Below are positions 19,642 through 26,336 of a stretch of 64,000 nt of DNA, piece by piece. Source of the DNA: Candidatus Edwardsiibacteriota bacterium (GTDB lineage Bacteria; Edwardsbacteria; AC1; EtOH8); NCBI GenBank assembly GCA_020053305.1, contig JAGVNJ010000039.1:1-64000 (forward strand), read 5' to 3'. Position 1 is the stretch's first letter. Each line of letters begins with the position of its first letter. Both the position numbers and the translations under genes were made by a program. The notes beneath the pieces are model-generated. The model searched no databases. It saw only the letters and a list, made by a program, of their open reading frames with translations, and was not told the DNA's origin.

Positions 19642-19644
19642 ATG

Positions 19645-19914
19645 TGGTAGCGCTACGGGGAATCCCCGCCTACGGCGGATCCGCCGCATATAACTGCTAT
19701 TATAATGTCTTAGGCGGAGAACCCCGGTTTTGCCGGGCTATCAAAAATCCAGGACAAAACTGGCCGGGCTTCATAAATATGGTAGCGCTACGGGGAATCC
19801 CCGCCTACGGCGGATCCGCCGCATATAACTGCTATTATAATGTCTTAGGCGGAGAACCCCGGTTTTGCCGAGCTATCAAAAATCCAGGACAAAACTGGCC
19901 GGGCTTCATAAATA
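19645..19914 (-). repeat. Two 135-base tandem copies of a T-arm-interrupted tRNA-Glu 3' half
   Basis: Copies 19645-19779 and 19780-19914 differ at one visible base and abut the CCA end of tRNA-Glu. Each ends (tRNA strand) with the tRNA's own 3' end, GATTCCCCGTAGCGCTACCA, and has the T-arm 5' strand CCGGGGTTC, but between TTC and GATTCCCC lies a 54-base insert (19665-19718 in copy 1) with complementary ends CCGCCTA / TAGGCGG. The T stem would extend into a long hairpin. The remaining ~50 bases of the unit are not tRNA. Reading frames through this array are artefacts. Confidence 0.9.
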
Positions 19915-19990
19915 TGGTAGCGCTACGGGGAATCGAACCCCGGTTTGATGGCTGAGAACCATCCGTCCTAGGCCACTAGACGATAGCGCC
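19915..19990 (-). tRNA. tRNA-Glu (CTC)
   Basis: A full cloverleaf on the minus strand: acceptor GGCGCTA pairing with TAGCGCT (one G-U), anticodon loop TTCTCAG (anticodon CTC), T-arm GGGGTTCGATTCCCC and an encoded CCA end (19917-19915). Two 135-base units derived in part from its 3' half follow directly downstream. Confidence 0.95.
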
Positions 19991-23015: not shown

Positions 23016-24223
23016 CAAATTTTAAGGGAAAGACATGGCGGGAAAAAGCTGTGGAGTTCCTGGGGCTGAAGAGGTCTATGGTGGCCCTGATGTCCATGGT
23101 TATCCTGGTGGGGCTGGGAGAGAAGATGGCCGAACGGTTCCTGCCGATATATCTGCTGGCGCTGGGCGGAGGGTTCCTGTCAGTGGGATTCCTCAACGGC
23201 ATGGACAACCTGCTGTCGGCATTATACTCTTTCCCCGGCGGGTATCTATCCGACCGTCTGGGGCACAAGAAGGCCCTGCTGGTTTTCAACCTGATCGCAC
23301 TGTTCGGCTATGCCATCGTCATCCTTTTCCCCTATTGGCCGGCAGTGTTCGCGGGCGCGGTGTTCTTCCTGTCCTGGACCGCCATTTCACTTCCAGCGGT
23401 CATGGGCCTGGTCTCCAAGGCATTGCCCCAGAACAAACGCACCATGGGCGTGTCCATGCATTCGCTGGTGCGGAGGATACCGATGGCGCTGGGCCCCCTG
23501 GTCGGAGGAGCCTTGATCGGGATATATGGAGAGAAAACCGGCGTCAGGATGGCTTTCATGGCTGCGTTTCTTTTGGGTATAGTTTCATTATTTGTCCAGC
23601 AGGTGATGATAAATGATGATATACCAATTAAAGGATCAGCCGAAAAGAACCCGTTCAAACTGTGGCGATTTATGGGCGCAGACCTTAAACGGCTGCTGGT
23701 ATCGGACATTCTGATCCGTTACGCCGAGCAGATACCTTATGCCTTCGTGGTGGTTTGGTGCCTTAAGAATAACACTATCTCCGCCTTCCAGTTCGGAATG
23801 CTGACGGCCATCGAAATGGTGGTCGCCATGCTGGTATACATCCCGGTGGCCTACCTGGCCGACAAGTCCACCAAGAAGCCCTTTGTATTGATCACCTTTT
23901 TCAATTTCACGGTGTTTCCGCTGTTTTTGCTGTTCTCGCACTCGTTCCCGATGATGGTTCTGGCGTTCGTCATCCGGGGCCTTAAGGAGTTCGGAGAGCC
24001 CACCCGGAAAGCGCTGATCATGGACCTGGCTCCCGAGGACAAGAAGGCCGGGATGTTCGGGCTGTACTACCTGGTGCGGGATGTGATCGTGTCCCTGGCG
24101 GCCTTTGGCGGGGCGTTCCTTTGGCAAGTATCCCCGGCTGCCAATCTGCTAACGGCAACCGGTTTTGGTCTGCTAGGGACGTTGTACTTTTGGGCATTCG
24201 GCCGCGACCTAAAAAGCGTTTAA
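23012..24223 (+). CDS. MFS transporter coupled to the ChrB-domain gene
   Basis: A 403-residue major facilitator protein with about 12 membrane segments. The cytoplasmic loop 2-3 motif is GGYLSDRLGHKKALL, a good match to MFS motif A. A larger central loop (about residues 195-230) separates the halves. It overlaps the ChrB-domain gene by 4 bases, a pairing also seen in other genomes where MFS proteins replace ChrA. The substrate, possibly a metal oxyanion or a sugar, is unknown. A convergent hairpin at 24267-24299 ends the unit. Confidence 0.85.
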   Translation: MTNFKGKTWREKAVEFLGLKRSMVALMSMVILVGLGEKMAERFLPIYLLALGGGFLSVGFLNGMDNLLSALYSFPGGYLSDRLGHKKALLVFNLIALFGYAIVILFPYWPAVFAGAVFFLSWTAISLPAVMGLVSKALPQNKRTMGVSMHSLVRRIPMALGPLVGGALIGIYGEKTGVRMAFMAAFLLGIVSLFVQQVMINDDIPIKGSAEKNPFKLWRFMGADLKRLLVSDILIRYAEQIPYAFVVVWCLKNNTISAFQFGMLTAIEMVVAMLVYIPVAYLADKSTKKPFVLITFFNFTVFPLFLLFSHSFPMMVLAFVIRGLKEFGEPTRKALIMDLAPEDKKAGMFGLYYLVRDVIVSLAAFGGAFLWQVSPAANLLTATGFGLLGTLYFWAFGRDLKSV

Positions 24224-24266
24224 ATTCAGTTAGATTAAACACAGATTATGCACCGCGGTCCAATAT

Positions 24267-24299
24267 AAAAAGAGGCAACCTTTTGGGTTGCCTCTTTTT
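24267..24299. terminator. Bidirectional hairpin terminator
   Basis: Perfect 14-base arms AAAAAGAGGCAACC / GGTTGCCTCTTTTT with a 5-base loop, between the plus-strand MFS gene and minus-strand tRNA-Gln. Confidence 0.85.
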
Positions 24300-24321
24300 A
24301 TTTGGTTCGGATGTTATATCT

Positions 24322-24395
24322 TGGCTGGGGGACAGGGATTCGAACCCCGATACCATGGTCCAGAGCCATGTGTCCTGCCGTTGGACGATCCCCCA
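24322..24395 (-). tRNA. tRNA-Gln (CTG)
   Basis: A complete cloverleaf on the minus strand: acceptor TGGGGGA / TCCCCCA, anticodon loop CTCTGGA (anticodon CTG), T-arm CGGGGTTCGAATCCCTG and an encoded CCA (24324-24322). Its 5' end is 3 bases after the GIY-YIG stop codon. A second, T-arm-split copy lies at 24636-24785. Confidence 0.95.
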
Positions 24396-24398
24396 GTT

Positions 24399-24641
24399 TT
24401 ATTTGATTATTTTTTTCAGTACTTCGCGGCCCTTGCCGGATTTTAAATATCTTTCTCTTCGCAAGGCTTCGGCTTTGGCTGTGAATTCCTCTTTATGTAC
24501 CAGTACCCAGGGACGATATCCCTTGGTAAAATTGCTTCGTCCGGCATTATGGTCGGACAATCTCTTCTGCACATCCGAAGCGGAGCCAACGTACTGGGTT
24601 CCCTTGCTTAGGCTTTTTATCACATATACGTAATATGGCAT
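24399..24641 (-). CDS. Small GIY-YIG nuclease-domain protein next to tRNA-Gln
   Basis: An 80-residue single-domain protein of the UPF0213/GIY-YIG superfamily. The signature reads YYVYVIKS followed by YVGSASDVQKRLSDHNAG; the catalytic Arg (KRL) is present, and HKEEFTAKAEALRRERYLK carries the usual Glu. GIY-YIG domains cut DNA in homing endonucleases and repair enzymes, but the role of these tiny proteins is not known. Its ATG (24641) overlaps the CCA end of the split tRNA-Gln copy (codon 2 is CCA), and its stop lies 3 bases before the intact tRNA-Gln. The gene is therefore sandwiched exactly between two tRNA-Gln copies. Confidence 0.85.
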   Translation of the reverse strand: MPYYVYVIKSLSKGTQYVGSASDVQKRLSDHNAGRSNFTKGYRPWVLVHKEEFTAKAEALRRERYLKSGKGREVLKKIIK

Positions 24642-24785
24642 AGGGTGGGGATTCCCCGCCTAGGTGATGACATAAGGCATGATAAGCGGCGGGTCAGCCG
24701 CCGCTGTGCTGCGTGCATGGCATCAGGCTGAGAACCCCGATACCATGGTCCAGAGCCATGTGTCCTGCCGTTGGACGATCCCCCA
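24636..24785 (-). pseudogene. tRNA-Gln copy split by a 77-base T-loop insert
   Basis: On the minus strand the sequence from 24785 matches tRNA-Gln from acceptor through anticodon (CTG) to GGGGTTC, then a 77-base insert (24655-24731), then GAATCCCC and a diverged acceptor ending in CCA at 24636. The insert begins (plus strand) CCCGCCTA and ends GGCTGA, close to the CCCGCCTA..GGCGGA ends of the tRNA-Glu inserts, and sits at the same T-loop point. It contains nested complementary stretches (TGATG/CATCA, GCGGCGG/CCGCCGC). Unlikely to work as a tRNA; possibly a structured RNA or a scar. Confidence 0.85.
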
Positions 24786-24884
24786 ATATATAAACGATCA
24801 AGAAGATTAATTATATATCAAATCAAGGTTCTTGTCAATTAAGAAGATCAATAATTAAGAAGATCAAGAACAATAACTGCCGGA

Positions 24885-24916
24885 TGTTAAATTTGGTGGG
24901 TGTTAAATTTGGTGGG
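24885..24916 (+). repeat. Perfect 16-base tandem repeat abutting a -35 box
   Basis: TGTTAAATTTGGTGGG twice in a row (24885-24900, 24901-24916), ending exactly at the TTGACA of the promoter at 24917. A good place for a regulator of the aminotransferase gene to bind. Just upstream, AATTAAGAAGATCA also occurs twice. Confidence 0.7.
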
Positions 24917-24945
24917 TTGACACTAATCGATAATTCTGTTAAAAT
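24917..24945 (+). promoter_or_regulatory. Promoter of the first aminotransferase gene
   Basis: TTGACA (24917-24922), 17-base spacer, TAAAAT (24940-24945), 50 bases upstream of the ATG, with a tandem repeat immediately upstream. Confidence 0.7.
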
Positions 24946-24995
24946 ATAGTGCTTTAGCGAGTAAATTTATAATACCACATAGAAGGGATCCTGCC

Positions 24996-26336
24996 ATGAA
25001 AGTGTTGAAAAAACCGATCTTGAGGGGCGCCTTCCCCGGACCCAAGGCTAGGGCCATCGTTGATAGAGACCATAAATCATTATCGCCTTCCTATACCCGC
25101 TCATATCCGGCGGTCATCGAAAAGGCCCAGGGCGTCTGGATGACCGATGTGGACGGTAACGTGCTGCTGGACTTCTGCGCCGGCATCGCCGTGAATGCCA
25201 CCGGACATAGCCATCCCCAGGTGGTAAAGGCCATCACCGAGCAGGCTAATAAATTCCTGCACTATTCCGGTACCGATTTCTATTATTCACCGGAGGTGGA
25301 ACTGGCCGAGCGACTGAATGCCATCTCCCCTACCGGCAAGGACAACCGGGTGTTCTTCTGTAATTCCGGGGCCGAGGCGGTCGAAGGGGCCTTGAAGCTG
25401 GCCAGATATTACACCAAGCGTCCCCAGTTCATCGCATTCATCGGGGCCTTTCACGGCCGGACCATGGGGGCGGTGTCCTGCACCGGCTCCAAGACCACCC
25501 AGAAAAAGGGCTTCTTCCCCACCATGCCGGGCGTGACCCATGTGCCGTACCCCAACTGCTATCACTGCGTTTTCAACAAGACCTATCCCGGCTGCAAGCT
25601 GGAGTGCGTCAAATACATTGAAGATGTCGTTTTAAAAACCATCCTGCCGCCGGAGGAGGTGGCGGCCATAGTATTCGAGCCCATCCAGGGCGAGGGCGGA
25701 TATGTGGTGCCCCCCAAGGAGGCAGTGGTGGCCCTTCGGAAACTGGCCGACAAGCACGGCATGCTGCTGATCTCCGACGAGATCCAGGCCGGCATGGGGC
25801 GGACCGGCAAGTGGTTTGGCATCGATCATTTCGGGGTGAAGCCCGACATCATCACCATGGCCAAGGGCCTGGCCTCGGGCATGCCGATGGGCGCCATCAT
25901 AGCCTCTTCCCAGGTCATGAGCTGGAAGCCGGGATCCCATGGCAACACCTTCAGCGGCAACCCGGTGTGCTGTGCGGCCGGCATCGCCACTTACGATTTG
26001 GTCAAGAAAGACCTGATGAAGAACTCGGTGGTGGTGGGCAACTACATGATGGCCGAACTGAAGAAGATGCAGAGGAAGCATCCGGTCATCGGCGACATCC
26101 GCGGCAAGGGGCTGATGATCGGGGTGGAGCTGGTCAAGGACCGCAAGACCAGGGAAAAAGACCACGACCTGATGGAGGCGGTGATCCAGGAGGCCTTCAA
26201 GCGCGGCCTGTTGATGCTGGGCTGCGGCACCAACACCCTTAGAATCTGCCCGCCGCTGATCATCACCAAGCAGGAGGCCAAGGTGGGCCTGGATATCCTG
26301 GATCAGGTGCTGAAAAAGGTCGCTAAGAAGAGATAA
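24996..26336 (+). CDS. Class III aminotransferase (4-aminobutyrate aminotransferase-like)
   Basis: A 446-residue PLP enzyme of the acetylornithine/4-aminobutyrate aminotransferase group. Visible parts are DFCAGIAVNATGHSHPQV, NSGAEAVEGALKLAR, GAFHGRTMGAVSCTGS, FEPIQGEGGY, ISDEIQAGMGRTGKWF and the PLP-lysine region ITMAKGLASGMPMGA. The insertion YPNCYHCVFNKTYPGCKLECV is characteristic of a branch well represented in Thermococcales, where members include broad amino-acid racemases as well as GABA aminotransferases. So racemase activity is a real alternative. Downstream lie rocD and iorA/iorB, pointing to amino-acid catabolism. A promoter with tandem repeats precedes it. Confidence 0.88.
   Translation: MKVLKKPILRGAFPGPKARAIVDRDHKSLSPSYTRSYPAVIEKAQGVWMTDVDGNVLLDFCAGIAVNATGHSHPQVVKAITEQANKFLHYSGTDFYYSPEVELAERLNAISPTGKDNRVFFCNSGAEAVEGALKLARYYTKRPQFIAFIGAFHGRTMGAVSCTGSKTTQKKGFFPTMPGVTHVPYPNCYHCVFNKTYPGCKLECVKYIEDVVLKTILPPEEVAAIVFEPIQGEGGYVVPPKEAVVALRKLADKHGMLLISDEIQAGMGRTGKWFGIDHFGVKPDIITMAKGLASGMPMGAIIASSQVMSWKPGSHGNTFSGNPVCCAAGIATYDLVKKDLMKNSVVVGNYMMAELKKMQRKHPVIGDIRGKGLMIGVELVKDRKTREKDHDLMEAVIQEAFKRGLLMLGCGTNTLRICPPLIITKQEAKVGLDILDQVLKKVAKKR

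Follow-up and report, generated by a model that had tools for sequence, protein, structure and literature searches.

Transfer RNA genes are classic landing sites for mobile DNA, and their known users are large islands with integrases. Tyrosine-integrase islands, for example, integrate inside tRNA genes, in the T loop or the anticodon loop, and the sequence they carry restores the tRNA. A free-standing GIY-YIG homing nuclease at tRNA genes is already known as well. SegB of phages T4 and T6 is such an enzyme of the tRNA region, is linked to many isotypes, cuts preferentially at RAWTSGAAC and promotes tandem amplification of tRNA genes (PMC13096335). In REP/RAYT systems, a small nuclease is linked to dispersed palindromes (PMC2817692, PMC3116915).

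The window, meaning the whole stretch of DNA analysed here, comprises 64,000 nt of contig JAGVNJ010000039.1 from a Candidatus Edwardsiibacteriota bacterium, designated G000 in genome comparisons. On the minus strand of its tRNA-Gln locus, a promoter is followed by a broken tRNA-Gln(CTG) copy, a GIY-YIG gene and an intact tRNA-Gln. The coordinates and order given for this locus in an earlier note all hold on re-examination, and the features are as follows.

24810..24838, minus strand: promoter TTGACA-17-TATAAT (12/12 consensus), native for tRNA-Gln and now preceding the split copy
24732..24785, minus strand: 5' part of tRNA-Gln, 54 nt, with a T-loop break after GGGGTTC; 100% identity to the intact copy
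24694..24731, minus strand: insert hairpin 1, TCAGCC(26)GGCTGA, 38 nt, read from the sequence
24655..24693, minus strand: insert hairpin 2, CCCGCC(27)GGCGGG, 39 nt, read from the sequence
24636..24654, minus strand: GAATCCCC and a degenerate remnant of the tRNA 3' part, overlapping the ORF start, read from the sequence
24399..24641, minus strand: GIY-YIG nuclease gene, 80 aa (PF01541, E=5.6e-17; dN/dS about 0.16 against G001; catalytic Tyr, Tyr, Arg and Glu kept)
24322..24395, minus strand: intact tRNA-Gln(CTG), 3 nt past the GIY-YIG stop codon (ARAGORN and Rfam)
24268..24298, minus strand: stem-loop with a T tail, 3' of the intact tRNA-Gln, a probable terminator (16-bp perfect inverted repeat)

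The 77-nt insert in the split copy (24731-24655) consists of two inverted repeats in succession. RNA family searches gave no match to a known RNA or group I intron within this insert, and neither a group I intron nor another intron family was found at E<=1 in 24200-25000. The GIY-YIG ORF is the sole gene between the tRNA copies; there is no site-specific recombinase gene inside the element, and the remaining ORFs overlapping the interval are short, mechanical ones. Like a tyrosine-integrase island, the element lies in a tRNA gene that is restored by carried sequence, but its only gene is a nuclease rather than an integrase, it is shorter than 400 bp, and some layouts duplicate the 5' part of the tRNA. 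The earlier note had also read codon 2 of the GIY-YIG gene as the CCA of the split copy. This is judged a coincidence, since the codon is TCA in G003 and TTT in G005 and since, from GAATCCC up to CCA, the tail bears no match to the tRNA. Upstream of the promoter (24837-24913), the window has short tandem duplications of CCACCAAATTTAACA and TTGATCTTCTTAAT units, which are present in G000 and absent from G001, G002 and G003.

Four genomes of the same genus (the window's own, G001, G002 and G003) share the region upstream of tRNA-Gln(CTG) and could be compared there. In G002 and G003, the promoter, which in the window is a perfect sigma-70-type match, is kept immediately 5' of the tRNA and runs straight into a single uninterrupted tRNA-Gln; these are empty sites. 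In G000 and G001, the same upstream flank enters the broken copy. Because the sister genomes have the promoter directly before one tRNA-Gln, the occupied sites carry an insertion of about 390 bp after GGGGTTC, with a 54-bp direct repeat of the tRNA. Over all 74 nt, the intact tRNA-Gln of the occupied site matches the uninvaded one exactly (100%). A second pair of sites is found at tRNA-Asn, where G000 and G001 share the promoter region and the downstream sequence. Between these flanks G000 has a single tRNA, whereas in G001 a broken copy is followed by the intact tRNA, a GIY-YIG gene and another broken copy. The gene is thus present or absent at homologous sites (Gln, Asn), at or next to its presumed target, as is typical of homing endonucleases. 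The leader and terminator stem are also repeated at tRNA-Asn and tRNA-Phe, and tandem duplication of the tRNA unit is therefore part of the process.

The 80-aa protein belongs to the GIY-YIG superfamily, given both its match to PF01541 (62.3 bits against a cut-off of 22.6, spanning residues 3-71) and its catalytic Tyr, Tyr, Arg and Glu. In an alignment of tRNA-linked proteins, Y6, Y17, G19 and E63 are invariant and R27 nearly so. The nuclease is under purifying selection (dN/dS 0.16 and 0.18). SegB has an additional DNA-binding region, and such a domain is usual in homing endonucleases; the 80 residues here hold no DNA-binding region besides the catalytic domain. The closest solved structures are UPF0213 (YazA/YhbQ-type) proteins, 1zg2 (E=4e-17) and 1ywl, with Slx1 more distant. 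A phage- or plasmid-borne element was considered and rejected, as the matches are weak and all below 45% identity.

A first survey, by protein search of 60 relatives, gave 91 matches. Within 250 bp of a tRNA gene lay 22 of the 28 top-scoring matches and 7 of the other 63 (Fisher p ~4e-10). This sets the present gene apart from the other GIY-YIG relatives in the same genomes, which are mostly located away from tRNAs, only one clade being tRNA-linked. The presence of the nuclease is patchy even within one genus. In a second survey, a profile of the tRNA-linked proteins (A1) was run over 386 genomes, and 63 homologues outside the window's bacterial family were picked by score alone, regardless of tRNAs. 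The earlier note had proposed a check for enrichment of such GIY-YIG genes at tRNA genes, and the enrichment proved strong: for 42 of the 63 homologues a tRNA or tmRNA gene lies no more than 250 bp away, against an expectation of about 1.5% (p ~1e-61), an outcome that excludes a lack of enrichment. The strand bias is complete, with the same strand in all 49 homologues that have a tRNA or tmRNA gene within 500 bp. Above 85 bits, 23 of 24 homologues lie within 250 bp of such a gene; the share without a tRNA inside 250 bp (21 of the 63) rises with distance from the query.

Fourteen isotypes are represented among the linked tRNAs (Cys, Pro, Asp, Glu, Ala, Asn, Tyr, Met, Ser, Arg, Leu, Gln, Lys and Phe), along with tmRNA. 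On a tree of 90 nuclease proteins, whose shortness leaves many forks unresolved, isotypes cluster, requiring 45 changes where shuffles require 67.6. When the window's family is reduced to only one genome, 39 changes are needed, fewer than in any of 300 shuffles (lowest value 41), although such shuffle controls leave some shared ancestry in the clustering. Some clade members (L345, L355, L336, L408 and L410) follow a tmRNA gene on the same strand at a distance of about 130-200 bp, and several of the tmRNA-linked members fall in a subclade that also holds Glu, Ala, Leu and Phe neighbours. A related GIY-YIG gene (L165, G060:C79:4386-4613) is located inside a 23S rRNA gene, between the complementary arms CACCTAAATCACT and GTGATTTAGGTG, in the manner of an intervening sequence.

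Two layouts recur. In layout A, as at the Gln locus, the order is a hairpin-bearing 5' tRNA copy, the gene and then the intact tRNA, and the ORF ends a median of 11 bp before that tRNA, overlapping it in some cases. In layout B, the gene lies between the intact tRNA, upstream, and a 3' copy. The arrangement was found in genomes including those of Lewinella sp. W8, a Falkowbacteria, another Patescibacteria and an Opitutales. A same-strand partial copy of the same tRNA is present at 50 of 73 loci and an opposite-strand one at 6 of 73, and none of the 13 control tRNAs, a small set, has a partial copy. Four broken copies stand in tandem at each of three loci (L316, L335 and L347). An assembly artefact is ruled out by the recurrence of the layout in genomes that are independent of one another, among them the 9-contig G003 and the isolate-deposited Lewinella sp. 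W8, whose element (L411) is at tRNA-Ala.

In many copies, a perfect hairpin replaces or splits a tRNA stem-loop, whether the anticodon arm, the D arm or the T loop. In a Pro copy (L312), for example, CTGCGTTCGGGACGCAG has become TCCGCCGGAGGCGGA, and in a Lys copy (L318) CGGCCTTTTAAGCCGG has become CCCGCCTTTTGGCGGG. Among the 28 breaks that could be resolved automatically, in D, anticodon and T arms, the insert folds better than at least 95% of shuffles in 17. Folded as RNA or as DNA, the split copies form hairpins (z about -1.2 to -2.7), which is compatible with a role at either level. The earlier note had envisaged a small element that targets the T loop of tRNA genes, duplicates the tRNA and carries a GIY-YIG nuclease. 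Targeting of tRNA genes, partial duplication of the tRNA and the nuclease gene are supported by the enrichment and the pairs of empty and occupied sites, but the T loop is not a general target. It is the break point in the Gln lineage and in the tail elements described below, while many relatives are broken in the anticodon or D arm, and it is thus ruled out that all members of the clade share one T-loop specificity. An initial pattern scan of contigs with TAGGCGGGGAWTCCC was too unspecific, and among its loci only two from Patescibacteria have a split T arm after a tRNA. At two loci (L073 and L138; Patescibacteria, Candidatus Falkowbacteria), a T arm split into GAGGGTTC, a palindrome and GATTCCCTC lies just 3' of tRNA-Leu(CAA) and is followed by an acceptor-like tail with a stem unlike that of the neighbouring tRNA-Leu.

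The inserted hairpins resemble, in sequence, the dispersed palindromes of the host genome. The hairpin of the Asn and Asp copies in G010, TCCCGANNNNTCGGGA, occurs at 226 sites in that genome (2.5 Mb, estimated 59% complete) and its reversed pattern at none; TCCGCCNNNGGCGGA occurs at 19 sites in G000, again with none for the reversed pattern. In G006 and G010, which belong to different families, the tRNA-Asn hairpins are at the same places and differ in sequence. By analogy, the pairing of a small nuclease with dispersed palindromes recalls REP/RAYT, except that a GIY-YIG enzyme takes the place of the Y1 (HUH) enzyme and palindrome mobilisation here is hypothetical. Two GIY-YIG genes away from tRNAs (L161 and L164) are flanked by inverted repeats (CCCCGTTAGAGAT..ATCTCTAACGGGG and TCATTGCGAG-type palindromes), so the association with palindromes may extend beyond the clade found at tRNAs.

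A second locus in the window, the Glu array, has a related layout.

19915..19990, minus strand: intact tRNA-Glu(CTC) (ARAGORN and Rfam)
19777..19911, minus strand: tail element 1, 135 bp, comprising a linker, GGGGTTC, two hairpins and a copy of the tRNA-Glu 3' tail, with no nuclease gene
19642..19776, minus strand: tail element 2, a tandem copy, 99% identical

At the end of each unit the tRNA-Glu 3' tail is repeated exactly, T loop through CCA, and Rfam matched nothing at the array beyond tRNAs. The earlier note was right that the array is broken at the same T-loop point as the Gln copy (between TTC and GA), and both 135-bp units have the two-hairpin layout. The array lacks a nuclease gene and may be described as a nuclease-free relative of the Gln element in layout; its connection to the nuclease is a putative one, drawn from the shared layout only. 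The shared split junction is not a product of chance, as the junction 12-mer GGGTTCTCCGCC occurs 5-10 times in every genome of the genus, while its reversed control occurs 0-1 times; most occurrences are immediately downstream of tRNA genes. The array belongs to a family of tail elements in the window's bacterial family. They lie 31-37 bp downstream of intact tRNAs for Ser, Ala and Gln, and at the Glu array 55 bp separate the intact tRNA from the junction 12-mer. In G000 as a whole, partial copies on the same strand exist for 15 of 44 tRNAs and on the other strand for 4 of 44. The same-strand copies are mostly tails beginning in the T loop, and most have no nuclease nearby.

As tandem units terminating in a tRNA 3' tail, the Glu array is of the rtT/tyrT type. 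The 178-bp repeats of E. coli tyrT/tyrV (rttR, tpr) are likewise tandem, each ending in a tRNA 3' tail. In E. coli K-12 (NC_000913.3, 1286000-1288000; L294), their T arm is split into AAGGTTC, a structured insert of about 68 nt and AATCCTTCCCCCACCACCA, and this split arm, AAGGTTC and AATCCTT on either side of the insert, precedes each tRNA tail. However, the E. coli repeats lack a nuclease gene and differ in sequence, and their relation to the Glu array is one of layout only.

The Gln locus is probably a minimal homing-type mobile element in a tRNA gene, consisting of a GIY-YIG gene, two hairpins and a duplicated tRNA half. The basis for this reading is insertion and tRNA duplication relative to empty sites, domain-wide same-strand linkage to tRNA genes, isotype clustering, purifying selection with catalytic residues intact, hairpin inserts and tandem arrays. 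According to such a model, the nuclease would cut the tRNA gene of its own isotype, in the Gln lineage at or near the T loop, between GTTC and GAA. Repair of the break would then use the locus with the element as its template, the two halves of the tRNA serving as homology arms. The target would thereby receive the hairpins, the gene and the tRNA half that it lacks, and an intact tRNA would be preserved. Repeated cutting and unequal repair could give rise to tandem arrays of broken tRNA copies. The nuclease would be expressed from the tRNA promoter, which is the proposed reason for the invariable same-strand arrangement. Homing with tRNA halves as arms would thus explain isotype fidelity, same-strand orientation, regeneration of the intact tRNA and tandem arrays. 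The hairpins presumably have a role in the element as well.

The main objection to homing is that the donor should be cut too, because the intact tRNA in the element is the uninvaded tRNA; unlike the usual homing endonuclease allele, this one keeps its presumed target whole. Homing would therefore require that the donor be cut only weakly, under regulation or in a particular DNA structure. A similar self-targeting problem is discussed for SegB (PMC13096335). Also against homing are the single 80-aa domain, the break points that differ between lineages, the many nuclease-free partial copies in G000 and the homologues that have no tRNA nearby.

It may be, instead, that a structure-specific nuclease cuts and swaps hairpins extruded from single-stranded DNA, with dispersed palindromes as its true substrates and tRNA arms hit because they are hairpins. 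The replacement of hairpin by hairpin would be better accounted for by such exchange than by homing. In favour of exchange, the new hairpins sit exactly at former tRNA hairpin positions (Pro in L312, Lys in L318 and Ala in L186), the inserts match host palindromes whose controls are absent, the nearest folds are UPF0213 and Slx1, and inverted repeats flank the two non-tRNA GIY-YIG genes mentioned above. However, the strict isotype match of the copies requires homology as well, and dependence of the dispersed palindromes on the nuclease is an assumption. We consider this explanation unlikely, if less so than the two that follow.

The nuclease could also be a passenger or domesticated gene, with tRNA genes duplicating and decaying independently and a housekeeping GIY-YIG gene carried along in a tRNA operon. 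The nuclease-free partial tails common in the window's own genome would fit, as would the E. coli tyrT repeats, where the split T-arm layout exists apart from any nuclease gene; but it is difficult to see why one nuclease clade should then be enriched at 14 isotypes and tmRNA in unrelated bacteria, always on the same strand, and yet be patchy inside one genus, and this reading is improbable. Least probable of all is a GIY-YIG protein that cuts tRNA itself, as a toxin or processing enzyme, with the broken copies serving as decoys or antitoxin-like RNAs. Co-orientation predicts the co-transcription that such a system would need, and the broken copies retain tRNA-like folding with the anticodon arm replaced. 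Nevertheless, GIY-YIG enzymes are known as DNA nucleases, the acceptor stem is often missing from the copies, and insertion polymorphism at empty sites would be left unexplained.

For the homing reading, SegB is a strong precedent by analogy. Both enzymes are GIY-YIG nucleases that are not intron-borne and adjoin tRNA genes of many isotypes, and in a comparison made here GTTCSAWTY, the reverse complement of the SegB motif, fits the T loops GTTCGAATC and GTTCGATTC. The present genes differ in being bacterial-chromosomal and single-domain (80 aa), in having a broken copy of a tRNA on one side and the intact copy on the other, and in the hairpin-substituted tRNA copies that accompany them; cleavage here is presumed. 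A search of open-licence papers found no description of these bacterial elements, which does not prove that none exists. As far as checked, three features are new: arms derived from tRNA, substitution by hairpins and breadth across bacteria.

The element class looks like widespread, tiny selfish DNA. A broader generalisation is possible and is put forward only tentatively: a new, bacteria-wide class of elements below 400 bp with single-domain GIY-YIG nucleases might move between tRNA and tmRNA genes of one isotype, use tRNA sequence alone as arms, swap stem-loops for host palindromes via recognition of DNA hairpins, and have nuclease-free derivatives that include the Glu array and possibly the long-unexplained E. 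coli tyrT repeats. If this is true, an 80-codon nuclease with near-universal tRNA sequence as its arms would explain isotype-specific spread across distant bacteria. Such elements would be a source of tandem and broken tRNA copies, perhaps the origin of the tRNA-tail repeats known since tyrT, and would be a chromosomal counterpart of SegB.
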